From positions 248,001-312,000 of the forward strand of contig NZ_JAJKFV010000004.1 in NCBI RefSeq assembly GCF_020966775.1: a stretch of DNA of 64,000 nucleotides, given 5' to 3'. A program made the position numbers and the translations under genes. Shown in pieces: positions 11,065 through 43,040 of the stretch (positions are counted from its first letter, which is position 1; every line of letters starts with the position of its first letter). The notes under the pieces are model-generated. The model saw nothing but the letters and a program-made list of their open reading frames with translations. It made no database searches and was not told where the DNA came from. This DNA comes from Rhodopirellula halodulae. GTDB lineage: Bacteria > Planctomycetota > Planctomycetia > Pirellulales > Pirellulaceae.

Positions 11065-11138
<74 letters not shown>

Positions 11139-11235
11139 GAGGAGGGTCGCGGGGTGGCGACGGTCGGCAGTTTAAACCACCCGTTTCAATTTGGCGAGTT
11201 GACCTGGACGGTTTTGATTCCCTCGAAAATACAGC

Positions 11236-11595
11236 TCAATCGCTCGCGGTGGTGGTGTCCGCGTAGGACCAACCGCATTCTGGGCAAGCGTCGTCGTCCT
11301 CCGCCATTTGATTGCCGCACGCGAGACACGCGTCTTCGTTCGAACTTGCCACCGAGTGAAGGCGGGCCTTGGATTGCGTCCGCAATTGGCTGGCGATCTG
11401 TTTTGCGTGGTTCGATTGCGACTCGGGAACCTTCACTTTGATGCCTCCATAAGCCCCCGAGTGCATCCAGTTCATTCCGACCGTGTGATTGTCGACCAAC
11501 TGAGGCGTCAAGCCTTCTCGCGTTAACAACATGGCCAACATCTCCGCGTCGACCACGTGATCAAAAACATCCACGACAACATATTCGGTTTGCAT
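11236..11595 (-). CDS. DUF2007-type protein with C-terminal zinc ribbon
   Basis: 119-residue protein (MQTEYVVVDVFDH) with a small ferredoxin-like N-domain of the DUF2007 type (MLAMLLTREGLTPQLVDN), a linker, and a C-terminal zinc ribbon with two CxxC pairs (CLACG...CPECG). The frame is open upstream to 11811, but that sequence is low-complexity and the conserved part begins at 11595. DUF2007 proteins are proposed to be signalling or binding proteins of unknown ligand. Transcribed toward the tRNA gene. Confidence 0.7.
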   Translation of the reverse strand: MQTEYVVVDVFDHVVDAEMLAMLLTREGLTPQLVDNHTVGMNWMHSGAYGGIKVKVPESQSNHAKQIASQLRTQSKARLHSVASSNEDACLACGNQMAEDDDACPECGWSYADTTTASD

Positions 11596-11856
11596 CGGAT
11601 CAGTCTTGGTGAGAGTGAAGTGTGAAGCGTGCCGAACCAAAGTCATCCGAGCGGGGCTCGCCCTCGAAAGGTAAGAGCGATCGCAGGCACACCATGTTGT
11701 TAATTGGTTGGCTTCGAAAACCATACGACTGGGCGCCAAAAATCTTGCTGCAAACTCTGTTGCAACCCCGCTCCGAGACGACTCGCGGTGGTCGATGACG
11801 AATCTTGGCAAAGAAAACCTCGGTTGGCTCTGTTCAGGTGCGTAAACGGTTCCAAC

Positions 11857-11893
11857 AAAAAAACGGCTCGAGAAAGCTTGTTCCTCGAACCGT
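11857..11893 (-). terminator. Rho-independent terminator of the haem-binding dehydrogenase gene
   Basis: On the minus strand a 10-base stem ACGGTTCGAG/CTCGAGCCGT (one G-T pair) with an 11-base loop is followed by a run of seven T. It begins about 29 bases after the stop codon at 11922. Confidence 0.8.
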
Positions 11894-11921
11894 TCGGGTC
11901 TTTCAAATTTGCGAAGAAGTT

Positions 11922-14507
11922 TTACTTCGTCGCGATCGGATCGGTGTAGATCGCGTGGTTGGCGTTGCCACCCGCTCGCAGGTAAGCGACCAAGTCCGCG
12001 ATTTCCTCTTCGTTCAGCGTGTCCAACAGACCGTTTGGCATCATGCTGACTTGCGACTCTCGCGTTTGGATCACTCCTTCGCGATTCACTTTGGTCAACG
12101 ACGACGGATCCAACATGTTGGTCATCACGCTCAACTCCCCGCCTCGCATGTTGATCACGCGGCCGGTGACGACTTCTCCATCCTCGGTCAGGAACTGAGT
12201 TGAGCCGTATTGGTCACTGATGACCTTGCTGGGTTCGATGATCGAAACCAGCATGTCACGTGGGCTGAATTTCCCGCCGGCACTGGTCAAATCGGGTCCG
12301 AGAATCCCGCCCTGCAGTCCCATGCGGTGACATTTGTAGCACTGCGCCGCCGCAAACATCGCCTTGCCGTTTTCGAAGTTTGGTTTGCGAGCCGAATCAC
12401 TGACGACGTTGACCAAGTCATCGACTTTCCACTCTTTCACAAACTCACGCGGCGGTCCGGCAGCCACCTCGGCGGTCGACTTGGGTTTCGCGAGCACGTC
12501 GGCCAAGGACTGCTTGTCTTCGTCGGACAACGCGTCCACGGTGACCTTCTTGATATTGTCCAAGAAACCACCAAACGACATTCCGCCGCGAGCGGTCTTC
12601 ATTTCGTTGAACCACGCCAGGTAGTCACGACGAAGGTCTTGGCTCCAACCTTCTTTCGCGGCACGCAATGCCATGGCGTAGTGGATCTGGCTTTCTTGGC
12701 TGGGCGAATTCTGCATCGCGGCCAAGACTGATTCGGTCGATCCGGGAGCGTTCAGGTAGATCGCCATGATGGCCAACTCACGATCCAGTGAATCCACACC
12801 GGACGGGAATTGCCCCGCAATCTTGTCGAGCAATGCCGCCCGCTGCGAATCGCTGAAGCCGCCCAAACGAATCGCTACCAAACCGGCAGCTCGCAGGTAG
12901 TCGATGTTCTCATCCGCGGTCAGCATTTCCAGCTCAATCGACTGCAACGCATTCACCGCGTCGACTTGGTCCGAAGCTTCGCCAGTTCGGGCCAAAGCGA
13001 CAACGCCCAGGATTTTGGCCTGACCGGATTCCGCATTGAGAACAGCGTCTTTCCAAGCGGCGGGCGAACGATGCTCCAGGGCAATGCGAGCCGCGAATCG
13101 GATGGCTCGGTCTTCGTGCCCCAAGTTTGCGATTGCCAACTGGATGGCATCTTCGACGCTCACGTTCAGTGCGTCGTCATCGACGTGCAATGCCTCGATG
13201 CGATGCCGCAATTCGCGGAGCTGTTTGGCGTCTGCGGTGACGGCAGCCGGTTTGGTCTCATCCGCTGACAGATCACCGGTGTAGCGAATGCGGTATAGAC
13301 CACTTTGGGTGCCGCGACCTCCGATTGCGAAGTAGAGGGCACCGTCAGGGTGAATCACCAAATCGGTCACCGGCAGCGGTGCCGCGGTCGCGAAAGTTTC
13401 GTAGCTTCCCGTGTAGCTCGAGCCATCTTCGCTCAGGTGCACGGCGTGGATATTGCCGTAGCTCCAGTCGGAGATGAACAACGCGTTTTCGTATTTCTTC
13501 GGGAATTTGGCCCCGTAACCGAACACGATGCCGGTGGGTGAACCAGGTCCGATGTCGACGGCCGAACCGAACGAATCAGGATAGTATGCGGGCCATTTGC
13601 CCGTCCCGTTTCGCCATCCAAATTCGGATCCACTGATCACATGATTGATTCGTGTCGGGCGATACCAAGGCGTGCCGACGTCCCATTCCATGTCCGCGTC
13701 GTAGGTGAACAGTTCGCCTTGGCGGTTGAGAGCAATGTCATAGGGATTTCGGAAACCGGTCGCGATCAATTCAATGTCGCTGCCGTCTGGCTTGAGCGAA
13801 CAAATGAAACCACCAGGAGCCATTCGATTGGCGTTGTGCCCGCGGGCGTCGGGCATGCGACCGAGCAGGTGATCCTCGTCCCAAACTTCCGGCACTCGCG
13901 AATGAGCGATGTTTTCCGGCAAGTTCGTGTTGTTCCCGGCCACCATGATGATGCGTTCGCCATCGGGTGTCAGGATCAACGCGTGAGGCCCGTGCTCGCT
14001 GCCGCCATTGAGCGGAATGATGTGTTCTTTCTTGTCGTATTGGTCGTCACCGTCGGTGTCGGTCAGACGCCACAGCCCGCACGGAAATTCTCGCGCGTTC
14101 ACGTTCGCATAAAGCGAACCGAAAGCACACAACAACCCTTGGGCACCGACGAACTCGATGTCCAACTTCTCCACTTCGGCTTTGCCCGAACTCATGTCGA
14201 TGCGGAACAGGCCACCGGATTGGTCGCAAGCGATCAAGCGTCCTTTCGGGTCGACGGTCAGACTCACCCAGGAGCCTTCCGTGTCAGCGGCAACTTCGTG
14301 GATCAGTTCGACTTCAAATCCGTCGGGAACTTTGAATTGATCGGCGGGAGTCACACCCAAGCCAGCTGCCGAAGCAGGGGTGCTCAAGACCAGCGAAGCA
14401 CTCAGCAGACCGGCGACGACACCGGCGCGAAGGATGGAACGGCCAGCCACACGAGCAAGTCGGGACACCGAGGTTCCCGTGCGTGCGGACAAAAGGAGGG
14501 ATTTCAT
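11922..14507 (-). CDS. PVC-type haem-binding membrane-bound dehydrogenase
   Basis: 861-residue exported protein of the large planctomycete family that joins a sugar-dehydrogenase-like beta-propeller, HEAT-like repeats and a single-haem cytochrome c domain. The start at 14507 gives a signal peptide (hydrophobic core to STPASAAG). The propeller begins DQFKVPDGFEVELIHEV and includes GFRNPYDIALN and SDWSYGNIHAVHLSE; a helical-repeat section follows, and the C-terminal 150 residues carry the haem site CYKCH (FAAAQCYKCHRMG) with a distal methionine candidate. It acts outside the cytoplasmic membrane, probably oxidising a sugar or other organic substrate, which is unknown. An in-frame extension to 14699 lacks export features. 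A strong terminator follows. Confidence 0.85.
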   Translation of the reverse strand: MKSLLLSARTGTSVSRLARVAGRSILRAGVVAGLLSASLVLSTPASAAGLGVTPADQFKVPDGFEVELIHEVAADTEGSWVSLTVDPKGRLIACDQSGGLFRIDMSSGKAEVEKLDIEFVGAQGLLCAFGSLYANVNAREFPCGLWRLTDTDGDDQYDKKEHIIPLNGGSEHGPHALILTPDGERIIMVAGNNTNLPENIAHSRVPEVWDEDHLLGRMPDARGHNANRMAPGGFICSLKPDGSDIELIATGFRNPYDIALNRQGELFTYDADMEWDVGTPWYRPTRINHVISGSEFGWRNGTGKWPAYYPDSFGSAVDIGPGSPTGIVFGYGAKFPKKYENALFISDWSYGNIHAVHLSEDGSSYTGSYETFATAAPLPVTDLVIHPDGALYFAIGGRGTQSGLYRIRYTGDLSADETKPAAVTADAKQLRELRHRIEALHVDDDALNVSVEDAIQLAIANLGHEDRAIRFAARIALEHRSPAAWKDAVLNAESGQAKILGVVALARTGEASDQVDAVNALQSIELEMLTADENIDYLRAAGLVAIRLGGFSDSQRAALLDKIAGQFPSGVDSLDRELAIMAIYLNAPGSTESVLAAMQNSPSQESQIHYAMALRAAKEGWSQDLRRDYLAWFNEMKTARGGMSFGGFLDNIKKVTVDALSDEDKQSLADVLAKPKSTAEVAAGPPREFVKEWKVDDLVNVVSDSARKPNFENGKAMFAAAQCYKCHRMGLQGGILGPDLTSAGGKFSPRDMLVSIIEPSKVISDQYGSTQFLTEDGEVVTGRVINMRGGELSVMTNMLDPSSLTKVNREGVIQTRESQVSMMPNGLLDTLNEEEIADLVAYLRAGGNANHAIYTDPIATK

Positions 14508-30655: not shown

Positions 30656-32056
30656 CTATCGCGAGCCTTGAAGGCTCTCTAAATAACGCTGGGTTGCCGC
30701 TTCATCAATGCGGATTTTGTGATCACGCAGTGGCGGAAAAACATCGCCTTCAACGCTCTCCAACCGTAGGTTTTCAGTCGAACGACGCGGCATATGACAG
30801 TCGATACAGTTGGACCCGAAGTCCACACCCTCCTGTGGATAATATCCACAATCACTTTCGTTTTCGTGGCAAGTCATGCAGCGGTTCGAGAACAACTGGT
30901 CGTCGCCACGCTCATTGTGGTGCGGGTCGTGACAATCCACGCAAGTCATTTGCGATTGCTGGAAACACACGCTTTCCGCCAATCGGTTCAGCTGATTGCT
31001 GGTGTGAACGCTGTTCTTCGCATCCTGCTGATTGTCCGGCGGAAAGTAATGATCCTCCAGCGGATCTCCAGGACGAAAACTCAAAGCATCGCCCTTCAAC
31101 TCCCTTGAACCACCGTGGCACTGGCCGCAAATGTCCATTTGCAGCTTCCTGTCCAGGTCAGCCGGGTTGGTGATTGCCACCGCATTCTCTGCGTCACGAT
31201 GGTCACGGTGATGGTTCACATGCCCTTCAGCGGGCCCATGACACCGTTCGCAAGTCACGCCCAGGATCAACGAACCGGGTGTGTAACGATTCCGGTTGCC
31301 GCGATAGTCGAAGTAGGTCAAGTGGCAGTCCAGGCATCGCTGCGGAATCGGTCGAGCGTACGCCGCGTCACCGTCAATGTATCCCGGACTATTGATCCAC
31401 TGATCACCGTCCGTGATGTGCGTCACATTATGCTGATACAGCCGGTCTCGGTGCCAATAGAGATACGTCTGGGCCATTTTTGATGATCCCATGATGATTT
31501 CCATCGGGACCTCGAAGCTCCAATCAAAGAAATGCACCTGTTGGAGAAACTCATTGCCCCGATGAATCATCTCAAACGAAACGTTGGGGTCCGACGTTTG
31601 AAAACCGTTGAAGCCTTTGTCGAACCGGCCGTCGATCGTCTGTTCGTTCACCGGGCGACTGGTCTTGTAGTGCCCCGTCGCCAAAAAGGAATGGTACTTT
31701 TCCTCGTGGCATTCCTGGCACGCTTCTGCGCCCACGAACCCGGGGTTCTCTTCGACCGGCGTTTCATCCGTGCTCTTCTCTGGACGGTAGCCGGGCTGAA
31801 AGGGAATCTCCACTCCGCCGCCGTCTTCGTACTTTCCAACGAACCAAACCTTGCCTTCTGGGATCAGGCTCACCACCATGTCGGACGAAGGCTCGGTTCG
31901 AACCGGAGCGACGGCTTCGCTCGCCTCTTGTTGCTGTCGTTCTCGAACCAAATCGCGAATCAGTTCATCCTCTGGATGTTCCTGCACCGATTGGCGAATC
32001 ACCCAACCGGCGCCAACCACAACCAAAATGATGATGAGCCCGCGTTTCAAGTTCAA
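30656..32056 (-). CDS. Seven-haem c-type cytochrome
   Basis: 466-residue protein with an N-terminal membrane anchor (LIIILVVVGAGWVI) and seven CxxCH haem sites: CQECH, CLDCH, CERCH, CGQCH, CVDCH, CMTCH, CIDCH. Spacing resembles octahaem/pentahaem reductase-like cytochromes of the doubled-CXXCH class, but no CxxCK site is visible. Candidate extra ligand histidines are frequent (GHVNHHRDHRD). It should act in the periplasm in electron transfer or as a reductase of unknown substrate. Start is a TTG (32056) with AGGAA upstream. No cytochrome maturation or quinol oxidase genes are adjacent. Confidence 0.85.
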   Translation of the reverse strand: MNLKRGLIIILVVVGAGWVIRQSVQEHPEDELIRDLVRERQQQEASEAVAPVRTEPSSDMVVSLIPEGKVWFVGKYEDGGGVEIPFQPGYRPEKSTDETPVEENPGFVGAEACQECHEEKYHSFLATGHYKTSRPVNEQTIDGRFDKGFNGFQTSDPNVSFEMIHRGNEFLQQVHFFDWSFEVPMEIIMGSSKMAQTYLYWHRDRLYQHNVTHITDGDQWINSPGYIDGDAAYARPIPQRCLDCHLTYFDYRGNRNRYTPGSLILGVTCERCHGPAEGHVNHHRDHRDAENAVAITNPADLDRKLQMDICGQCHGGSRELKGDALSFRPGDPLEDHYFPPDNQQDAKNSVHTSNQLNRLAESVCFQQSQMTCVDCHDPHHNERGDDQLFSNRCMTCHENESDCGYYPQEGVDFGSNCIDCHMPRRSTENLRLESVEGDVFPPLRDHKIRIDEAATQRYLESLQGSR

Positions 32057-32276: not shown

Positions 32277-33020
32277 TTAACCTTCGGTCTTGGCTGGGAT
32301 CAGATTCACGACGGTTTGGATGACTTCGCCGATTGTCATGACTCGGGCGTATCGGTCTCGCAGCGTTGCCAAGGTGGCGTTGTGAAGTTCGGGTGTCACG
32401 GTCGCACAACAATCCTCGACGACGGTGACGAGGTACCCCAGGTCACACGCGTCTCGGACGGTCGTCTCGACACACTCATTGGTGTAGACGCCCACAACGA
32501 ACAAGGCCTCGATGCCCAGGTTTTTCAGCACGTAGTGCAAGTTGGTTGAACTAAACACACCACTCGCGGTTTTGTTGATCACAATCTCGTCGCGATCAGG
32601 CAGCGGAGCGACCTCTTCCAAAAACTCCGCTTCATGCGAACCGGGAGCCGCCAGCAAATTCAGGCGTTTGTGCCCTTTTCCGCGATCACGGCCGTCTTTG
32701 GTCAACGATTGAATTCGCGTGTGAATGACTTCCAAATTGCGTCGCCGAAACGCTTCTTGAAGCCGCCGAACATTCGGGAGCACCGTCTGTTGCAAACGAT
32801 CGAAGTAATACTTCTGACCCTCGGGGGATACACCGTGATTGTTCCCTTCGGCGAACACACCGCACCCCGGTGCCGCATCCAGGTACTGCAAATCGATGCA
32901 AAGAAGAGCCGTGTGACGCCCAACCAAAAACTCACCGTGAGCCGGGTTGTCAACGAACGATTCCTGATAAATTTCGCGAAGCGGATCGGGGTGATTGTCT
33001 TGGGGTGCAAATTCATTCAT
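32277..33020 (-). CDS. Isochorismatase-family amidohydrolase
   Basis: 247-residue cysteine hydrolase. The triad is Asp43 (LLCIDLQYLD), Lys150 (VINKTASGVF) and Cys183 (VGVYTNECVETT), with the expected cis-peptide region before the cysteine. The family includes N-carbamoylsarcosine amidase, ureidoacrylate (RutB-type), biuret and nicotinamide hydrolases. ATG 33020 starts the conserved protein; the frame extends upstream into the preceding gene. It is the last gene of the carbamoyl/ureido cluster, 16 bases after the M20 hydrolase, so its substrate is probably a ureido or amide compound made by the pathway. Confidence 0.85.
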   Translation of the reverse strand: MNEFAPQDNHPDPLREIYQESFVDNPAHGEFLVGRHTALLCIDLQYLDAAPGCGVFAEGNNHGVSPEGQKYYFDRLQQTVLPNVRRLQEAFRRRNLEVIHTRIQSLTKDGRDRGKGHKRLNLLAAPGSHEAEFLEEVAPLPDRDEIVINKTASGVFSSTNLHYVLKNLGIEALFVVGVYTNECVETTVRDACDLGYLVTVVEDCCATVTPELHNATLATLRDRYARVMTIGEVIQTVVNLIPAKTEG

Positions 33021-33036
33021 TTCAGGCGTGGTTCCA

Positions 33037-34281
33037 TCAGTCCGTGGTGCCGGAGAGTTCAGCGAGCGAGTGCAGCAAAACGTTAGCACCTGCTTCGATG
33101 TCTTGCCATGCGGTCCATTCCGCCGGCGAATGGCTCTGCCCCGATTTGCTGGGAACAAAGATCATCCCGACGGGAATCATCCGTCCCATGATCTGCGCAT
33201 CGTGTGCAGCCCCGCTGGGCATGATCTCGTAATCCAGTTCCAATCGCTCGGTCTGTTTGCGAATGGTCTCCACCACACTCTCGCCGCAAGTGACGGGGCT
33301 GATCAAACTCTTCTGTTCAAATTCGAACATCAGACTTCGCCGCCGGGCAATTGCGGACAGTGCTTTTCGAAATGCATCGGCCAATTCGTCCAAGACTTCC
33401 ATCGATGTGTCACGGACGTCCAAGGCGAACTCAACCAATCCCGGCACCGTGTTCGTTGCGCCCGGCAAGATCTGTGCTTTGCCGATCGTCGCACGACTGC
33501 GGTCGCTGCCATTTTCTTCCAGGATGCGTGGCACCTCGTGGGCGAAATCAGCCAATCCCATGAATGCATCGTGTCGCATGTCCATCGGAGTCGTGCCGGC
33601 ATGATTGGCTTCACCTTTCAGTCGAACTGACCACGTGAACAATCCCGTGATTTGATCCACCACACCGACTGATTTATGCAAACAATCCAAGACGGGACCT
33701 TGTTCGATGTGCATTTCCAGATAGCAGTGCAAGGTCTCCGGATCGCGGGCCGCATCCAGTGCCGCGACGGGATCGTAACCGTGCCGCGACATTTCATCAT
33801 GCAACGGAACCCCGTTCATGTCCGTCATCGTGGCGATCATTTCGGGGTTGATCTGACCGCACAGCGACTGAGACCCGAACATTCCACCGAACCGCCCTTC
33901 CTCGTCACTGAAGGCAATCAGTTCGATCGACCGTTGATTCTCAAATTCTGCTTCACGCAGACACCGCAAGCACTCCAGTCCGGCGACCACACCCAACGTT
34001 CCATCCAGTGCACCCGCACACGGAACCGTATCGATATGCGAACCGACCAAGACCTTTGGCGCATCCGTTTTCCCCGTCAGTTCCGCCGAGACATTGGCCG
34101 CCCCGTCCAACGAATGATCAAAGCCTGCCGCCTGTATCCGGTCGATCAACCAACGCTTGCCTTCGATGTCGGCATCGGTGAACGCCATCCGGTAGATCCC
34201 ATGATCTTCCGCATTTCGTCCGATTTGTGACAGTTCCAGAATGTCTGCTTTGATCCGTTCCAAATTGACTCGCATTGCCAT
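33037..34281 (-). CDS. M20-family N-carbamoyl-amino-acid/allantoate amidohydrolase-like enzyme
   Basis: 414-residue zinc amidohydrolase of the AllC/HyuC/beta-ureidopropionase type. Metal ligands: His82 (VGSHIDTV), Asp93 (GALDGTLG), the Glu pair near 127 (FSDEEGRF), His in YLEMHIEQGPVL, and His in SGAAHDAQ. The dimerisation (lid) domain contains GEANHAGTTPMDMRHDA. These enzymes hydrolyse N-carbamoyl groups from amino acids, releasing ammonia and CO2. Its ATG overlaps the stop of the asparagine synthetase gene (TGATG), so the two are translationally coupled. The substrate is inferred from family and neighbours. Confidence 0.88.
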   Translation of the reverse strand: MAMRVNLERIKADILELSQIGRNAEDHGIYRMAFTDADIEGKRWLIDRIQAAGFDHSLDGAANVSAELTGKTDAPKVLVGSHIDTVPCAGALDGTLGVVAGLECLRCLREAEFENQRSIELIAFSDEEGRFGGMFGSQSLCGQINPEMIATMTDMNGVPLHDEMSRHGYDPVAALDAARDPETLHCYLEMHIEQGPVLDCLHKSVGVVDQITGLFTWSVRLKGEANHAGTTPMDMRHDAFMGLADFAHEVPRILEENGSDRSRATIGKAQILPGATNTVPGLVEFALDVRDTSMEVLDELADAFRKALSAIARRRSLMFEFEQKSLISPVTCGESVVETIRKQTERLELDYEIMPSGAAHDAQIMGRMIPVGMIFVPSKSGQSHSPAEWTAWQDIEAGANVLLHSLAELSGTTD

Positions 34282-36200
34282 CAGTCCACCGCCGGCAATG
34301 GCAAGTTCTCAACATACTGACCATGCAGCATATGCAACTGCAGAACATGGTTGATGACGATGTCGTTTCGACGCGCGATCGTGCCATCGGTTTCTTTCCA
34401 AGCATCATCGATGAACGACATCAACTTTCCGTGGTCCAAGAATCCGACTGACGAAACCCGCGAAGGCGTCAACCAATGATCGATCATCTCCTGCACCGCA
34501 GCACGTTTGACCGGATCCGTGTGTGCGGGCGGAGCCATGAAAGCGAACTTCTTGCGTTCATAAAGCTCGCGAGGCAAGACATTGACCATTGCTTCGCGGA
34601 GCACCCATTTTTCCACGCCATCGCGAATTCGAATGTTCGGCGGGATCTTTGTCGCGTACTCGGCAACATGGTGATCGAGGAAGGCGGGTCGGGCTTCCAT
34701 GCTGTTCGCCATGTCCATTCGGTCGCCGCCCCAGGTCAAAATTTGGCCCTCGAGCATCGTCTTGCTCCACGTGTACTGCGACACATCCAGCGGATGCCGC
34801 CCACGCACCTGCGCCGGATCGATCGCTCCAGCCACCGCACCCACCGGGTCGTATTCCTGAAGCATCTGCGACATGGACGACGAAAGAATGGGCTGGAACC
34901 GTTTGAGAACCAACATCCAAGGTTGAATCCACGACGGGGTGAACCCACACAAATCCTGCCAAGCGGCGTGCTGCATGTCTTCTTCCGCCAGGATCGCACC
35001 GGCGAAGATGCCGCCTTCGTCATCGCGCCCCAACCAATCGCGTTTGAAGAACGGATAGCCGCCGAACAGCTCGTCGCTGCCTTCACCGGTGATCACCGCT
35101 TTGTAGTTGCACGCCCGAACGCGGCGACTCATGTGCCACTTCGCGACCGCCAACGTGTTGTAGAACGTTCGCTCGGCGTGCCAAGTCGCTCGCTCAAACG
35201 CTGGTCCATAAAGCTCCTTTTCGGTCAGCCTCAACAACTCTTGCTCAGCCCCGGTCCGTTCCGCCATTCGTTTGGCGATATTGGACTCGTCATACTCATC
35301 GCTATCGAACGCGATGGTGAAGGCCTTCACGGGAGACTGCTGCAGCGTGTTGGCCAAACCAAGAATGGAACAACTATCGATGCCGCCGGACAAGTAACAG
35401 CCAACCGGCACGTCGGCTTCCAATCGTGCGGCAACCGCATCGATCAATCGATCCTGCACCCCCTGCACAAACGGAGCGGGATCCGCGTTCTCATCGTGCG
35501 AATCTGGAAACTCCAAATCCCACCAGCGTTTCGATTGAACCTCCAGCGAGCCCCCCCGTTTCTGCACGATCAACATGTGCCCCGGCAACAACGCTTGGAC
35601 GCCTTCGAACGCCGTGCTGCCAGGCACCATCACCTGCATCATTTGGTGAATGGCGGCCTTCGGACACAAGCGAGGCTCGATGTCGGGATGCTGAAGAATG
35701 GATTTGACTTCCGATCCCCACACAAACCCATTGTCGTTGACCGCGTAATAAAGCGGTTTGATTCCGAAACGATCGCGGATCAGAACGAGTCGCTCTTTTC
35801 GGTCATCGTAAAGCACGACCGCGAATTCGCCACGCAGGTGGTCGACCATCGCCAAATCATGCTTCAAATACAACGGCAGCGTGATCGCGCTATCGCTTTT
35901 GCCGTTGCAGACATAGTTCTCACATGCCAGTGCGGTGCGAATGCGTTTGTAGTCATAAAGCTCGCCGTTGACCGTGACCGCATAGTCACCATCGTCCGTT
36001 TCGATCGGCTGATGACCACACGCCAGCCCGATGATTGACAATCGAGTATGCCCCATAGCCAACCCGCGCTCGCGAAAAAATCGGCTGCCGCGTTCGTCGG
36101 GGCCTCGGTGATCGAGCACGTCCAACATGCGATCCAAAGAGAACCGCAATTCGCGTTCGTTCGTTCGAGAAGGATTCCAAAATCCGGTGATACCACACAT
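34281..36200 (-). CDS. asnB: Glutamine-dependent asparagine synthetase (AsnB type)
   Basis: 639-residue two-domain enzyme. Cys2 (MCGITGFW) is the N-terminal glutaminase nucleophile after Met removal, with RGPDERGS, SIIGLACGHQP and NGELYDY in the class II glutaminase fold. The synthetase half has the pyrophosphate motif YLSGGIDSCSIL and GEGSDELFGGYPFF. ATG 36200 is certain because Cys must be residue 2; the frame is open further upstream. It would convert aspartate to asparagine, or amidate a related carboxylate. Adjacent carbamoyl-transfer and N-carbamoyl-hydrolase genes make a modified aspartate a plausible substrate. About 640 residues is typical of the AsnB subgroup linked to special metabolites. 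Confidence 0.92.
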   Translation of the reverse strand: MCGITGFWNPSRTNERELRFSLDRMLDVLDHRGPDERGSRFFRERGLAMGHTRLSIIGLACGHQPIETDDGDYAVTVNGELYDYKRIRTALACENYVCNGKSDSAITLPLYLKHDLAMVDHLRGEFAVVLYDDRKERLVLIRDRFGIKPLYYAVNDNGFVWGSEVKSILQHPDIEPRLCPKAAIHQMMQVMVPGSTAFEGVQALLPGHMLIVQKRGGSLEVQSKRWWDLEFPDSHDENADPAPFVQGVQDRLIDAVAARLEADVPVGCYLSGGIDSCSILGLANTLQQSPVKAFTIAFDSDEYDESNIAKRMAERTGAEQELLRLTEKELYGPAFERATWHAERTFYNTLAVAKWHMSRRVRACNYKAVITGEGSDELFGGYPFFKRDWLGRDDEGGIFAGAILAEEDMQHAAWQDLCGFTPSWIQPWMLVLKRFQPILSSSMSQMLQEYDPVGAVAGAIDPAQVRGRHPLDVSQYTWSKTMLEGQILTWGGDRMDMANSMEARPAFLDHHVAEYATKIPPNIRIRDGVEKWVLREAMVNVLPRELYERKKFAFMAPPAHTDPVKRAAVQEMIDHWLTPSRVSSVGFLDHGKLMSFIDDAWKETDGTIARRNDIVINHVLQLHMLHGQYVENLPLPAVD

Positions 36201-36331
36201 AGAAACAGTTGGTGTTTCGAAGAAATTCGAGAGTGAGTGTGCGGGCAAAACCATGCCCGCATCAATGAAGGCCACAACGTCTGAACGCAGGCGTGACGCA
36301 GAAAGATCGCCAAACCGGGTTCACTTGGCAG

Positions 36332-37414
36332 TTAGATGCCGCTGATCTTGTCGGTGCGATCGAGAATGGCTGCCAGCAAGGCTTGGCGTACAAATACCGC
36401 GCCAGCGGCTTGAGCGAAGTAAAGATTGTGATCCGTTTCGTCCAGGTCTTCATCCAATTCCGCGTTGCGCGCGAGTGGGTGCATGACCACCGCTCCCGGT
36501 TTGAACGGGCTGGCCGCATTCAAACTGTGGCGTGCGTCCAGGTTTCGATAGCTGTCACCCAAAAACGCGATGGAGTTGACATAAACCACATCCAATTCCG
36601 GCAAGACTTCTTGCACGTCGTTGGTGATTTCGATCGGTATTGGCGACTGTTCGATCGGCTCCGTCAAATCCAATCCAACCGGGTCGGCCATCTCGCTGAT
36701 CAACGTGATCTTGCTGACCGCTCCGGTGAACATGAGCGCCAGACGCAGGAAGCTCTTAACAGCTCGCATGGATCCTGGCGTTCCGATGATTCCCAAGTGC
36801 ACGCGTTTTTCAGGCGGACAATCCACCGAATGCAACTGTGGTCGCCATTTCAACAACGCATACCAATCAATCAAAGCTTGCGTCGGATGATGTCCGGAAC
36901 CATTGCCCGCATTGATCAGCGGACGTTGCAAATTCTTTCGGATCTCGTCCATGCTGTTCGTGTCGGGGTGTCGCATGATCACGACGTCACCGTAGGTGTT
37001 GAACATTTCTCCGATGTCGGCCAGCGATTCCCCTTTCGCAATGCCGGTGACTTGCCCATCCGGCACGGACAACACCTTGCCATCCAGTCGCTGGACCGCA
37101 CTTTCGAACGACAATCGCGTTCGAGTGCTTGGCTCGAAGAACGCCGTGATAGCGATTTTGCCATCCAGTGGCTTGTCCATCTCGACGTTGCGTGACTCCA
37201 GCAACGCGGCCAATTGAGCGATCGCCAAGACCGTTCGCCGGTCAAACTGTCGCGGGTTCACGATGGATTGCCCGGCCAAATCCTTGAGCTTCTCACGATC
37301 GATTCGGCCATCGAACGCATCCAGCAGCGACAGCGGCGAAAGCTGTCGCCCTTTGGAATTGGACGCAGCGGCATCCAATGCCGCGGACACTTGTTGGTTT
37401 GAAAGAGAGTTCAT
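36332..37414 (-). CDS. Divergent aspartate/ornithine-carbamoyltransferase-family enzyme
   Basis: 360-residue transcarbamylase. The carbamoyl-phosphate half is intact: FFEPSTRTRLSFE, the loop lysine in GIAKGESLADI, IMRHPDTN, and NAGNGSGHHPTQALIDW. The acceptor half is unusual: where aspartate carbamoyltransferase has the TRVQ/TRIQ segment (Arg229 and Gln231 in E. coli) this protein reads VNSIAFLGDSY, and HPLPR is HPLAR. An extra 50 N-terminal residues precede the core. It could be the housekeeping PyrB of this lineage or a transcarbamylase for another acceptor; the operon with an SSS transporter, AsnB and an N-carbamoyl hydrolase favours a special role. ATG 37414 follows the 39-residue peptide by four bases. 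Confidence 0.8.
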   Translation of the reverse strand: MNSLSNQQVSAALDAAASNSKGRQLSPLSLLDAFDGRIDREKLKDLAGQSIVNPRQFDRRTVLAIAQLAALLESRNVEMDKPLDGKIAITAFFEPSTRTRLSFESAVQRLDGKVLSVPDGQVTGIAKGESLADIGEMFNTYGDVVIMRHPDTNSMDEIRKNLQRPLINAGNGSGHHPTQALIDWYALLKWRPQLHSVDCPPEKRVHLGIIGTPGSMRAVKSFLRLALMFTGAVSKITLISEMADPVGLDLTEPIEQSPIPIEITNDVQEVLPELDVVYVNSIAFLGDSYRNLDARHSLNAASPFKPGAVVMHPLARNAELDEDLDETDHNLYFAQAAGAVFVRQALLAAILDRTDKISGI

Positions 37415-37418
37415 GGGG

Positions 37419-37538
37419 TTACCAGATCTGCTTGTCCCGCAAGTCAATCCACAAAAATCCGATTAGCACCGCCACGCCAAGCACACAAAGTACCAGACTG
37501 CCAATCACAAGTAGCTGAAAAAAGAAAACGGAAAACAC
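37419..37538 (-). CDS. 39-residue single-helix membrane peptide
   Basis: A GTG three bases after the symporter's stop opens a frame whose sequence is one hydrophobic helix (FFFQLLVIGSLVLCVLGVAV...IGFLW) with a charged tail (IDLRDKQIW), ending TAA four bases before the next gene's ATG. Tight packing between two well supported genes, membrane-helix composition and a positively charged tail argue that it is translated. Small single-span subunits accompany several transporters, so it may be an accessory of the SSS symporter. Too short for standard gene callers. Confidence 0.55.
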   Translation of the reverse strand: MFSVFFFQLLVIGSLVLCVLGVAVLIGFLWIDLRDKQIW

Positions 37539-37541
37539 GGC

Positions 37542-38993
37542 TCAGTCCTCCGCCAAAGTTTCGAAATGGAAATCACCGGGCCAAATTCGGCAGCAAATCG
37601 CGAAGGTCACTCCTGAAACCGCCGAACCGATCAACGAAGCCGTGAACCATCCGATCGTGAAATACGCCACCAAACCGATCACGCTACCCAGCACCATCGA
37701 CGCGCATGCCGCCTGGGAACTGGCTCGCCGCGAATACAAACCACACAAAATGGGCCAGATACAACTGCCAACCATCGGGCCCGCGAAAAACAGAACGGTT
37801 GCCAGGGTTCCGACGTTCTGCAGCGCCGCGATCCAAGCGATCGCTCCCAACACGATGATCGCAGCCGCCGACCATTGACGCTTCGTTCGGTCCTCGGCGG
37901 CTTCGCCTCCAACTCGTTTGTGAATCGGTTCCGCGATGTCATTGACGATCAAATCTGACGTGGCCGCCAACAAACTATCGATGCTGGACGCCAACGAACA
38001 AAAGACGACAACAAAAACCAGCAACGCACCGCCCGTTCCCAACAACGTCGCGGCGACCAGAGGCCCCGCCGTGTCAGGCTCGCTGATTCCAATCCCCAAC
38101 GACGGCGCGGCCAATCCAAGAAATCCCGCGACAATTGGAACGGGCAACCACAACACGCCGCCCAATGCATACGCCTTGGGACCGACGCCTTCTCGCATGG
38201 CGAAGGCTCGGCTCCACCACACGTTGCTGTGAAAGATCTCCCCAAACCCGAACAGCATGTTGTTGAACAAAGCCATCAACGCCGCGGGGAAGAACGCGGA
38301 AAGCAACATCGGTCGTTCGGTTCGGAGGTCTTCGTGAATTTCCGCCAGATCGACTTGTGTGAGCACGGCAATCGCCACGACCACCAAACCGGCCAGAATG
38401 ATCAGGCTCTGAATGAAGTCCGTTCCGATCACCGCGTACATTCCGCCAAACAAGGTGTAGGCCACGCAAACCACCACCACGACCGTCATTCCGACCTCGT
38501 AAGGAATGCCTGACAACACGTTCAGCAATTTCCCGCCGGCCATCGACATCGATACCAACCAAGTCACCGCGTAGAACAGCGAGATCAACAAGAACGGAAT
38601 CGTCCCCATCCATCCATACCGACGACGCATGAACTCCACGGCGGTATAGCCAGTCGGCATCAACTGCCGAATCCGTCCGCTCATCGGTGCAAACGCGAAC
38701 AGTCCAAAGCTGGCGGTGGAATACGCGACGGCACCCCAAATCCCCAATTGCAATGCGTACTGCGGAGCCAACATGGTCGTATTGGAGGTGATCCAGGTTG
38801 CCACCGCGGTCGCGGTTCCCATGGCCAGGCCCACGTTTCGGCCGGCCACAGCAAAACCGTCGTAGGACTTCGCTTGTCGCCCCCACCACCATCCCAGGGC
38901 GATCCACAACACGCCAAACAGCAGCAGCAATCCGTAGCCCGCTTCCGGACTCAAAATCGCTCCGCTTTCAGCAAACAAACCGATTCCGTTCAC
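37542..38993 (-). CDS. Sodium:solute symporter (SSS family)
   Basis: 483-residue polytopic protein of the SSS/LeuT-fold family with about 13 helices. Family marks: GRNVGLAMGTATAVATWITSN at the first helices, AYTLFGGMYAVIGTDFIQS (the SSS signature region), and CSLASSIDSLLAATSDLI in helix 8, where the Ser-Ser pair contributes to the sodium site. It is closest in style to urea/polyamine-type members, so uptake of a ureido or amide compound would fit the operon; this is inference. The start overlaps the end of the upstream gene by four bases (ATGA). Confidence 0.88.
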   Translation of the reverse strand: MNGIGLFAESGAILSPEAGYGLLLLFGVLWIALGWWWGRQAKSYDGFAVAGRNVGLAMGTATAVATWITSNTTMLAPQYALQLGIWGAVAYSTASFGLFAFAPMSGRIRQLMPTGYTAVEFMRRRYGWMGTIPFLLISLFYAVTWLVSMSMAGGKLLNVLSGIPYEVGMTVVVVVCVAYTLFGGMYAVIGTDFIQSLIILAGLVVVAIAVLTQVDLAEIHEDLRTERPMLLSAFFPAALMALFNNMLFGFGEIFHSNVWWSRAFAMREGVGPKAYALGGVLWLPVPIVAGFLGLAAPSLGIGISEPDTAGPLVAATLLGTGGALLVFVVVFCSLASSIDSLLAATSDLIVNDIAEPIHKRVGGEAAEDRTKRQWSAAAIIVLGAIAWIAALQNVGTLATVLFFAGPMVGSCIWPILCGLYSRRASSQAACASMVLGSVIGLVAYFTIGWFTASLIGSAVSGVTFAICCRIWPGDFHFETLAED

Positions 38994-39622
38994 GATTCGC
39001 CCTCCCGGGTCTCGCTGTCCCGAACCACGCTGACCCGGACCTCACTGTCCGTTGAGGCCAGCGCGAACGCATCGGAGCGGTACCTTCGCGTTCCGCTGGC
39101 AATCACGACGACGACCGCGAGAAACACGATGGCACCGACAATCAGCAATCCTGCGGCTTGTTCCAACGGCCAGTGCATCACAGCGACCGTGGCGGGAACG
39201 CCCGATCTCGCGATCACCTGCCCCGAGTCATCCATTGCCTGGACTTCATAGCGATAGATACCGTCGTTCAGTCCCGAGACAAACGCGATGGGCAAAGTTC
39301 CCTGATAAACCAATCGGGAAGTGGGATTGAACTCAGCGACCGCCGTCAAATCGACGTCTTCGCCTTCCAAACCAGCAACGGTTGCATCGGCTGGCAACTC
39401 CGCGACGCCGGTCTCGTAGACGTGGTAAGAGCCCTCGACGTCGTCCGGAAACTCAAACTTCCAGTTCAGTTTGAAATATCCCTCGCGGGAAACACCAAGA
39501 CTCGCCGAATCAAACTCGACCACGTCGGTCGACAGCGAACCACTTGACGGTTCTTGACCGGTAACAGGCAATGCCTGAAAAGAAAGAGACCACCCCAAAC
39601 ACGCAAACCATGCGCAAATCAT
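38990..39622 (-). CDS. Exported membrane-anchored protein upstream of the symporter
   Basis: 210-residue protein with an N-terminal signal peptide (ICAWFACLGWSLSFQALPVTG), an extracytoplasmic beta-rich domain of about 130 residues (EGYFKLNWKFEFPDD, NDGIYRYEVQAMDDSG) resembling a fibronectin/Ig-like fold, and one C-terminal transmembrane helix (LLIVGAIVFLAVVVVI) followed by a short cytoplasmic tail. Coupled to the symporter by an ATGA overlap, it may be a substrate-binding or assembly partner. First gene of the cluster; no clear promoter seen. Confidence 0.65.
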   Translation of the reverse strand: MICAWFACLGWSLSFQALPVTGQEPSSGSLSTDVVEFDSASLGVSREGYFKLNWKFEFPDDVEGSYHVYETGVAELPADATVAGLEGEDVDLTAVAEFNPTSRLVYQGTLPIAFVSGLNDGIYRYEVQAMDDSGQVIARSGVPATVAVMHWPLEQAAGLLIVGAIVFLAVVVVIASGTRRYRSDAFALASTDSEVRVSVVRDSETREGES

Positions 39623-39858: not shown

Positions 39859-40371
39859 TCAGGGCGATTGAAACATGCTGGCTTCCCAGATGAAGTCACG
39901 CTGTTTCAATCGAACGCGAGGCGGAATGATATCGACGACTTCCGCGTCACCGATCTTGTCGCCTTTCGAGACGAATTGAGTTTGGTCACCAAATCGCATG
40001 ATGGCTCGCGAATCTTCTAACCCCGCAAACCCCAGAACTTGATAGCTGGATGCCTTGGTGGGTTGAGCGGATGTTGTGCTCGGAACATCGTCGTCCAAAT
40101 AGAACGGATTCTTTCGCTCCGGAAACGGCGGATCGAACTTCTGGGCAGCTAACTGGGAGGAATCAGACGACTCCACGCCGATTTCCAAATCCGCCTGCGT
40201 GCGTTGGTCCTGCAAAGCCACTCGACGAATTGTTTCGATTGACTCGGGATCCACACCGCAGCCGGAGACGATTGCGAAGCCCAACACCAACGCGCCGATT
40301 CCGCGAAAATTCCGCGTCGGCGAAATGGGTCCGCTTTGAATGGTTGAAGACATTCGATTCGAAAACAACAT
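39859..40371 (-). CDS. PilP/GspC-like lipoprotein of a secretin system
   Basis: 170-residue predicted lipoprotein: signal segment [12 protein letters not shown] then Cys38, followed by a linker and a small beta domain at the C-terminus ([33 protein letters not shown]), the size and layout of PilP-type pilotins or inner-membrane clamps. ATG 40371 overlaps the secretin stop (TGATG), indicating translational coupling. Probably anchored in the inner or outer membrane and binding the secretin N-domains. Confidence 0.65.
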
Positions 40372-42992
40372 CACCGAATCTCCACGGGCCGAACGTGAAC
40401 CGGCGGATACATCGACGCGGTTGTCGCATCGGGTGCTGACATCCGATCGGCTCGCAAGGGCTCTCCCCAAGGGGACGAAGTCGTCCCCGAACGGAATCTT
40501 TCTTGAGCGATCTCGTTTTGCTGGATCAAATCTCGCAGCGAAGCCCCCACCTCCTCTTGGGCGATCGCGACGGCAGGCGACTCACGTCGAGCAGGAACTT
40601 TCAGCGACAACGGAATGGCCGAAGACACATCAGGTGCCGAGATCGCTTCCATTGCCTCCAATTGCACCGCGTCCGCATCCAACATCTCGCCAGCGTGAGG
40701 ATGCGTTCCCGGAAACTTCAAGGAGCTCCCAGTGGGTGACAGATTTGGTTTCGACAAATTCGGGGCAGACAAGTTCGGTGCCGAGAGACTCTGCCCGTTT
40801 AACTGTCCGTTTGAATCGGGTGCATGCATGAATGCGTCGGTGGACGGTTCGATCGAATGCGTGATCGCACCGTCATAGGCATCCGGGTAAGCGACCTCAA
40901 AGGTTGAAATGCCCGTGCCGCCCAACATTTCCAATTCTCGCGTGCCGCCGTTCAGACGCGGACGCGGATGGTGGTTGGGACAGTTGATATCGTGACAGTA
41001 CGGAGCCTGCGGACAGACCGATGCATACGGAATGCTGTCCAATTGCTTGGTCGCAACGCAATACGCTTGACGCGAACGAGCGTTTCCGTGGTCGTAGGGC
41101 GAGATGATCTCTGGTTTCAAGAAGACAATCAGCTCACTTTCGCGAACTTCCGTCGCATGACTTCGGAACAATTTCCCAACGTACTTCAAGTCACGCAGGT
41201 ACGGCACACCGTTGACATTCTCGATCACGCGTTTCTGACGCAGCCCACCGAGCGTGAACATGTGACCGTTGGCAACACGCACGGTGGTCTCGGCTGTGCG
41301 GCTATCGATCACCGGATTGTTCTCGATCTCACCGACTTTGACGCTGTATTCCGGTTGGACCTTCAGCTCGATTGTATTGTCGTTGCTAATTCGCGGCGTG
41401 ACTTTCAGGATGATGCCGGCGTCTTTGAATTCCACCTGAGCAAACACCACATTGCTGCTGCCTTCGGAGGGCTGCGCCGCGACGATTGGAATTTGCTGAA
41501 CGATCTTGATCGATGCTTCCCGACGATCGATTGCGGTGATCGATGGATCGGCCAACAACTTGGCTTCGTCGCTGGAATCGAGAGCTCGCAACAACACACC
41601 GGTATCAAATGTGTCCGTCAACGTACGCACACCCAAGGTGGTGCCTCCGCTGCCCAGCGTTCCAAACGTCAGTGCGTTGGAAACATTGCCCGCCAAATCA
41701 GCCAGCGCCGATTCGTTTGTCGTGTTCAAACGAAAATCGCGTCCCCAATTCACGCCGAGTTCCTCGAGTTCCTCCAACCCGACGTCGTAGATCAACGCCG
41801 TGATGCGAACTTGTGCACGAGGAATGTCCAACTGCTTGAAGGCTTGCGTCGCCAAGTTCAGCTGTGCACGATTGCCCTTGATCATGATCCGGTTTTCAGC
41901 TTCGAACACGGCGACCACGGTGCCGTCACCGAGCGCTCCTTCCAGCGACTCCCGCATCTCCGACGCTTCGGTGTACTGAGGCGTCAGATAGATCAGGTTG
42001 GTCGCGTTGGCGTCGTAGTAGCTGTCGCCGGACGTTGCGTCGCCAGTCGATCCGGATGTGCCGGGGCCGATTGACTGTGTCAACGAGTCCGAGTTCCCCG
42101 ACGGTCCGGTCATTGAACCCGACGGCTGCTGCGAACGCATCGTTTGCAACATGCTTTCGACGCGGTCAATGTTGACGGCGTTGTCGACGACCAACATCGC
42201 ACTGCGTCCCACCGGTTGGATACGACCGCGATCGGACAACAACAATTGAGCCGCCGCGATGGTGGCCGTCATCTCTTCCGTGTCCGCCGCGCGAAAACGC
42301 AATGTGCGCGATTCAAACTCCGGACTGGCGGTTCCCACTTCATCCAGTGGCAACACCACCAAACTGTTCCCCGCGGCAATGTAGCCGTACCCCGAGGAAG
42401 TCAAGATCGCGGAAAGCACATCACGAAGCGGCGCGTCCTTGAAGACACCGGAAACGTTCCCGGAAACCTTCTCGCCAGCCACAATGTTGATGTTCCACAA
42501 ATCCGACAGCAGGAAGACCACCTCCTGAAGCGACGTTTTGCGAAAGGTGATGCTGCCGCGTTGGTTCAGCACTTCATCCACCGACAGAGGCGGTCCCGCC
42601 AAAGGAATCATCTTCGCCGACGAATGGGTCTGACTTGGGTTTCCAAGTGGTGCTTCGCCCGAAGCCGTCGCCTCCAATGCGATTGCCGAACCCGCCGACT
42701 GCGCGGATGGCACCACATCAACGTTGGTGTTGGGTTCGGCCGCGATGGATTGGCCTGAGAGATTTGCAACACAAACCGCCAGGGTGAAACCGAAACCGAC
42801 GGACACAGACCGCAGCCAACCGCGGTGATTCAAGCAATCCCACAACAAGAACGACTTCGCACGACGTCGTTTGGCAACCGCCAAACGGGAGTGAGTCTTC
42901 AACGATTTGCGCACACCTTTTCCACTGCCGAGCGATGGACTCGGAGAGTTGATTGCGTGAATCGTGATCGACGCGGAGCCTTCCATGGCCAT
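40371..42992 (-). CDS. Secretin (GspD/PilQ-like) outer-membrane channel
   Basis: 873-residue secretin. A long basic N-region precedes a signal-like helix and the cleavage-like [13 protein letters not shown]0-type domain: [38 protein letters not shown]-domains with [18 protein letters not shown] and [12 protein letters not shown] follow, then the secretin core with [14 protein letters not shown] and [18 protein letters not shown]. After the core come about 220 extra residues with a short repeat [15 protein letters not shown], unusual for secretins. The ATG 42992 has TTGAGGA eight bases upstream. It acts with the genes on both sides in type II secretion or type IV pilus assembly; no pilin gene is in the operon. 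Confidence 0.85.
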
Positions 42993-43040
42993 GCGTTGTG
43001 TCCTCAAGAAGAATAGCTGGTGACTCAACAAAGCGTTGTG

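Follow-up and report, generated by a model that had tools for sequence, protein, structure and literature searches.

A block of six genes on the minus strand of a 64,000-nucleotide stretch of the Rhodopirellula halodulae genome (contig NZ_JAJKFV010000004.1, positions 248,001 to 312,000; hereafter the window) probably encodes an osmoadaptive pathway through which a small, uncharged compatible solute, an N-carbamoyl amino acid amide, is made, recovered and dismantled. The block, defined from the open reading frame (ORF) listing together with NCBIfam and Pfam family scans, occupies window positions 32277–39622 and is transcribed in the order SMP (small membrane protein), SSS (sodium:solute symporter), TCB (transcarbamylase), ASN (AsnB-type amidotransferase), ZNH (zinc-dependent amidase) and ISO (isochorismatase-type amidohydrolase). 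A stronger form of this reading, in which the solute is carbamoyl-glutamine amide (CGA), is put forward tentatively, at somewhat short of an even chance; CGA would then have producers in the Planctomycetota, Verrucomicrobiota, Bacteroidota, Myxococcota and minor phyla, rather than being a purple-sulfur speciality.

In the proposed scheme, TCB would carbamoylate the α-amino group of a neutral amino acid (glutamine being the likeliest) with carbamoyl phosphate as donor, and the AsnB-type ASN would amidate the carboxyl end of the N-capped glutamine compound. The predicted product is an amino acid with a carbamoyl group on its α-nitrogen and an amide on its α-carboxylate; carrying these groups at both ends, it would be uncharged, as compatible solutes tend to be. 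When salt falls, ISO would take off the amide and ZNH the carbamoyl group, yielding glutamine, CO2 and ammonia, and the presumed cargo of the sodium symporter SSS and its membrane partner SMP is the same solute, brought back into the cell. Control of the cluster probably lies, in many hosts, with a MarR repressor of the EctR/CosR type.

A scan of genome contigs identified 117 relatives, of which the best 80 were kept as loci (L035–L114; counts out of 81 add L034, which is the same locus as L058, leaving 81 different sequences among the 82 TCB rows). The arrangement SSS–TCB–ASN, all on one strand, is found in 76 of the 80 loci, and the other four stop no more than 450 bases from TCB on the side that is missing, ruling out a chance neighbourhood. 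SSS lies upstream of TCB in 78, the two exceptions being at contig ends, and neighbour clustering placed SMP homologues ahead of the symporter in 59 of 81 loci, in 30 of which the two ORFs overlap by 4 bases, as counted from the listing. The operon-like block on carbamoyl and amide nitrogen described in the initial annotation is thus conserved as a unit, and the comparison of gene order suggested there found the core genes unscattered in related genomes.

ISO is present in 42 of the 80 loci, each time with ZNH (counted at 50% identity or more), and ZNH is found without ISO in five. In 28 loci the ZNH–ISO pair is downstream and co-directional with the core, in nine upstream and divergent, and in five downstream and convergent, one pair (L107) being scored as present about 5 kb beyond ASN; ten loci with long flanks on both sides are without the full pair. 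Being optional and varied in placement, the pair points to a core for synthesis and transport, around which an optional module of hydrolases has changed position. An account in terms of ureido-compound catabolism alone was rejected because the most conserved part, TCB and ASN, is synthetic. At three clusters scored as being without ZNH, distant relatives of the enzyme (25–31% identity) are encoded at L060:13336-14619, L068:12400-13335 and L108:3064-4281, perhaps representing a different breakdown enzyme. In another locus (L106:6815-9816), the symporter match is split in two, and the 477-residue minus-strand ORF that separates the pieces is possibly an insertion.

TCB is by its sequence a third paralogue beside PyrB and ArgF. 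A canonical PyrB and an ArgF are encoded elsewhere in the genome, which answers the search for a second pyrB proposed in the initial annotation: TCB is not the sole one. It scores above the Pfam cut-offs (PF02729, 120 bits; PF00185, 41 bits) and under every PyrB and ArgF cut-off in NCBIfam (PyrB, 168.8 against 263 and 168 against 237 bits), its best family matches there being aspartate transcarbamylases (ATCases). The fold and the carbamoyl-phosphate residues are shared with PyrB: S52–T55, K84, R105, H134 and Q137 (E. coli numbering) are invariant in all 82 TCB rows. R167, R229 and Q231 are the residues that we take to contact the aspartate moiety in ATCase; the first is kept in 82 of 82 rows, whereas R229 (serine in 81, alanine in one) and Q231 (alanine in 79, threonine in three) are lost from every one. 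TCB further differs from PyrB in the replacement of S80 by glycine throughout, and of P268 by alanine (81) or serine (one), while R229, Q231 and S80 are all retained in 28 of 28 planctomycete PyrB controls. From the loss of R229 and Q231, with the carbamoyl-phosphate site and R167 kept, we infer that the second substrate is a neutral amino acid.

The predicted structure of TCB (mean predicted local distance difference test score, pLDDT, 86) matches ATCases from Trypanosoma, Pyrococcus and E. coli. Because the loop that follows the altered residues (279–289) is of low confidence, the pocket cannot be read from the model. In a quick tree, in which the position of the long outgroup branches is unsure, TCB forms a single clade with a support of 99. 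That TCB is a second ATCase or ornithine transcarbamylase, supplying pyrimidines or arginine, would agree with its best family matches and its fold, but is given next to no weight and was rejected in view of the missed cut-offs, the loss of R229 and Q231 in all rows, the separate clade, and the presence of PyrB and ArgF elsewhere.

ASN belongs to the AsnB type (TIGR01536, 394 bits against a cut-off of 267), keeping the glutaminase and ATP motifs (Cys1, NGE, SGGIDS and GEGSDE), and two further full-length AsnB-type genes are found elsewhere in the genome. In an alignment with 72 relatives of more than 600 residues, a conserved FYNTL.VAK stands where E. coli AsnB has TTIRAST, and there is a family-specific stretch, CGFTPSW.QPW. 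In the Sphingobacterium locus L069, ASN (near 11080-13026) reads MSGITG for MCGITG and NGR for NGE; this glutaminase site looks lost, and the enzyme may be in decay or draw on ammonia. Specialised-metabolite pathways can include AsnB-type enzymes and carbamoyltransferases, and ASN gives scores with the models for lasso-peptide and macrolactam cyclases, far under their cut-offs. A secreted specialised metabolite or signal carrying a ureido amide is nevertheless very unlikely, as neighbour clustering revealed no recurrent synthetase or export genes beside the core, and an uptake-type symporter belongs to it.

The chemistry expected of ZNH and ISO is the mirror image of the synthetic steps assigned to TCB and ASN. 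ZNH scores 551 bits with NF006771 (cut-off 399) and 365.6 with TIGR01879 (cut-off 204); its best solved relative is an N-carbamoyl-L-amino acid hydrolase of the same superfamily (3n5f, 255 bits), with allantoate amidohydrolase at 199 bits, and ErtE, a model for N-carbamyl-L-glutamate hydrolase, is third among its NCBIfam matches, under cut-off. ISO (PF00857, 131 bits, cut-off 27) shares a superfamily with the biuret, N-carbamoylsarcosine and ureidoacrylate hydrolases, falling under the cut-offs for BiuH (NF050097, 73.4 against 370 bits) and RutB (TIGR03614, 56.4 against 378 bits). Its Asp, Lys and Cys, presumably the catalytic triad, lie in the conserved stretches CID.QYLD, NKTASGVF and ECV. 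Unlike these known hydrolases, ZNH and ISO form a pair linked to synthetic genes.

SSS scores 79 bits with PF00474 (cut-off 22.8) and 109 bits with TIGR00813, under the cut-off of 184. SMP gave no sequence match in NCBIfam, Pfam or the PDB; its model (mean pLDDT 83) has a putative signal segment, a beta-sandwich domain (strands 34–148) and one long C-terminal helix (153–199), and a structure search returned weak matches to PKD, FN3 and Ig-like folds, a generic beta-sandwich.

The coordinates of the six genes are given in the table, the ASN start being the ATG just before the catalytic Cys and the other five start sites having been chosen by the analyst. Seven genes, with three junctions overlapping or within 4 bases, had been annotated initially; the family names given there were right, while six genes were found, with two overlaps (SMP/SSS, 4 bases; ASN/ZNH, 1 base) and 16 bases between ZNH and ISO. 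The gap of about 130 bases described between the transcarbamylase and asnB stands at 131, and a second such gap, of 127 bases between SSS and TCB, had gone unmentioned.

Table. Genes of the proposed N-carbamoyl amino acid amide cluster, in order of transcription (window positions)
Gene	Predicted product	Position	Strand	Family match
SMP	small membrane protein, putative symporter partner	38990..39622	-	no family match
SSS	sodium:solute symporter	37542..38993	-	PF00474
TCB	transcarbamylase with altered amino-acid site	36332..37414	-	PF02729 + PF00185
ASN	AsnB-type glutamine-dependent amidotransferase	34281..36200	-	TIGR01536
ZNH	Zn-dependent hydantoinase/carbamoylase-family amidase, likely N-carbamoyl-L-amino acid hydrolase	33037..34281	-	NF006771, TIGR01879
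ISO	isochorismatase-type cysteine amidohydrolase	32277..33020	-	PF00857

A compatible-solute context, in the form of osmotic regulators or solute genes nearby, is seen in related loci and not beside the window's own cluster. By neighbour clustering, 20 of 81 loci, from several phyla, have a MarR-type regulator, and one more was found by eye at L034 (the L058 locus); in L087, L088 and L109 the regulator gene lies directly ahead of SMP on the same strand. The MarR domain was identified by Pfam. The L047 protein matches 33 plasmid records, eight of which were opened; in all six of these with gene tables, the matched gene is part of an ectoine neighbourhood: it adjoins ectA in five and is separated from ectA by proVWX in the sixth. 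The Bacteroidota protein from L089 finds several of the same records, plus others from Listeria and Streptomyces. The cluster-side MarR proteins appear EctR/CosR-like.

In five loci (L038, L042, L043, L045 and L047), the betaine genes GSMT-SDMT-BCCT, encoding glycine/sarcosine methyltransferase (GSMT), sarcosine/dimethylglycine methyltransferase (SDMT) and a BCCT transporter, precede the cluster in the same orientation, separated from it only by a 76-residue ORF, and in L054 they lie on the opposite strand. Scored from L047 and L045 only, GSMT reaches 492 bits with NF051855 (cut-off 350) and BCCT 454 bits with TIGR00842 (cut-off 408), with SDMT at 375 bits under the NF041675 cut-off of 550. 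The 76-residue ORF, which is conserved and without a known family, has SMP on one side and the MarR or betaine genes on the other (L044:7426-7656; also L038, L041–L043 and L045–L047). The genome of the window has its own MarR/GSMT-SDMT-BCCT block, on another contig.

The association with betaine genes extends to genome content. Among 149 genomes of the family, TCB is present in ten of the 11 that have GSMT, against 1.8 expected (hypergeometric P ~2e-8, relatedness ignored), representing seven of eight genera, and the two genes lie within some 6 kb of each other in only two of the ten joint genomes. The sole GSMT genome without a TCB match (G435, locus L154) has a MarR, SDMT and BCCT block like that of the window's genome. 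Conversely, TCB is found in none of the 23 genomes with an ectoine synthase, where 3.7 would be expected (P ~0.012, relatedness ignored); the synthase was counted at 88 bits or more, and the overlap is also zero in the 29 genomes above the Pfam cut-off and the 38 at E ≤0.001. According to the available text of one study, ectoine clusters occur in seven of 56 Pirellulaceae type strains, including Stieleria varia (PMC13342039). Within the genus g245, taken here to be Stieleria, the ectoine-positive genome G431 gave no TCB match and four others have TCB.

These surroundings bear on whether the cluster instead serves a nitrogen store or a scavenging route, in which a ureido amide is imported or accumulated as a reserve, ISO and ZNH degrading it later, with no osmotic role. 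A symporter and two amidohydrolases are present, and CGA-like compounds are nitrogen-rich; against this, the conserved part is the synthetic one, the hydrolase pair is missing from the ten long-flank loci, and the regulators and betaine genes nearby are osmotic, making a store or scavenging route quite unlikely.

The osmoadaptive pathway preferred here has its nearest known counterparts in two kinds of locus. The first is the N-acetylglutaminylglutamine amide (NAGGN) operon of the asnO-ngg type, exemplified by PA3458–PA3461 of Pseudomonas aeruginosa, in which, as far as the available text relates, one locus unites amidation of the AsnB type with a hydrolase and a MarR repressor of divergent orientation, and the product is an osmoprotectant (PMC8070244). 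There, an AsnB-type enzyme amidates an N-capped glutamine compound, as proposed for ASN too; here, however, the cap would be a carbamoyl group from a transcarbamylase, rather than an acetyl group added together with a dipeptide ligase. None of the six cluster genes was identified as Ngg (which combines GNAT and ligase) by the NCBIfam and Pfam scans, and ASN scores 257.7 bits with the NAGGN amidotransferase model TIGR03104, under its cut-off of 570.1. The second kind is the ect cluster with EctR or CosR, in which solute genes stand beside a related MarR and, in some, an SSS-type transporter (PMC13342039 and PMC7876524, in the parts available); CosR is described in the latter as repressing ectoine, betaine and BCCT genes in Vibrio. 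The window cluster differs in having no ect enzyme and, across the 149 family genomes, no co-occurrence with ectoine synthase.

CGA was described in 1991, and its known producer is Ectothiorhodospira marismortui/mobilis. In the accessible portions of the literature, it is the one carbamoylated, amidated osmolyte of a review (PMC1224877), was reported from a single organism and as minor there (PMC3857566), and is listed for purple sulfur bacteria (PMC7824335). No biosynthesis genes for it were found described in the open-licence literature searched, in so far as those texts were available, and an account elsewhere is possible. The same enzymes could play the same role with another amino acid, a carbamoylated and amidated asparagine or other neutral residue being a new compatible solute. 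This variant, which shares in the probability given to the pathway as a whole, is unlikely: the loss of R229 and Q231 indicates a non-acidic side chain and not specifically glutamine, and the best 80 of the 117 relatives link the cluster to no CGA producer (Ectothiorhodospira lay outside the search). Against it stands the place of CGA as the sole such osmolyte in that review.

Several points weigh against the osmoadaptive pathway or its CGA form. The titles of the same 80 relatives include no pseudomonadote, again with Ectothiorhodospira outside the search, and some hosts (Sphingobacterium, Chitinophaga) are not, to our knowledge, salt dwellers. No regulator adjoins the window's own cluster, nor those of most related loci, and the co-occurrence statistics ignore relatedness. 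In addition, the genome G423, which appears to be that of R. baltica SH1, has all six genes without stops in their aligned parts. A nuclear magnetic resonance (NMR) study of R. baltica in which salt and nitrogen were varied identified glutamate, sucrose, trehalose and MGG, and its available part names no carbamoylated amide solute (PMC3694870). With the cluster apparently intact and the solute unnamed, either the cluster in that species was silent, or of minor importance, under the conditions used, or it makes something else. The literature on R. baltica expression under salinity leaves the cluster genes unmentioned in the main text available, the RB gene numbers tried being a guess.

Synthesis or turnover of a ureido amino acid, as proposed in the initial annotation, is supported at the level of sequence; the likely osmoadaptive role, the division into core and hydrolase pair, the lost aspartate-binding residues and the candidate product were absent from it. 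If the CGA reading is true, genes would be assigned to an osmolyte described in 1991. It would also mean that a transcarbamylase family that otherwise passes as PyrB-like has been re-tooled from the ATCase fold for a new substrate, and that widespread marine and soda-lake bacteria have a nitrogen-rich salt protectant with its own recycling pair and symporter.

By record title, the hosts of the best 80 of the 117 relatives belong to the Pirellulaceae, Phycisphaerales, Verrucomicrobiota, Bacteroidota, Myxococcota/Polyangia, GN15 and Calditrichaeota. In a phylum sample of 294 genomes, TCB exceeds the level of canonical PyrB only in the window's own genome (100%) and G025 (62%), the other matches listed being at 37% identity or less. 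Within the family it occurs in 24 of 149 genomes and eight of 68 genera, including five of the six genomes of the genus, the window's own among them. A search for orthologues on plasmids gave 46 records, all below 60% identity (best listed 34.5%). The species name of a metagenome-type record titled Rhodopirellula baltica BR-MGV (L041) looks questionable, its TCB being only 82% identical to that of the window, compared with 91% in G423.

Two flanking regions were not counted in the cluster. Upstream are a 203-residue protein without a family match and a type II/IV-pilus-like secretin (40371-43031), and downstream (30656-32056) is a cytochrome-c-type protein, which is also found downstream in L035 and L157.

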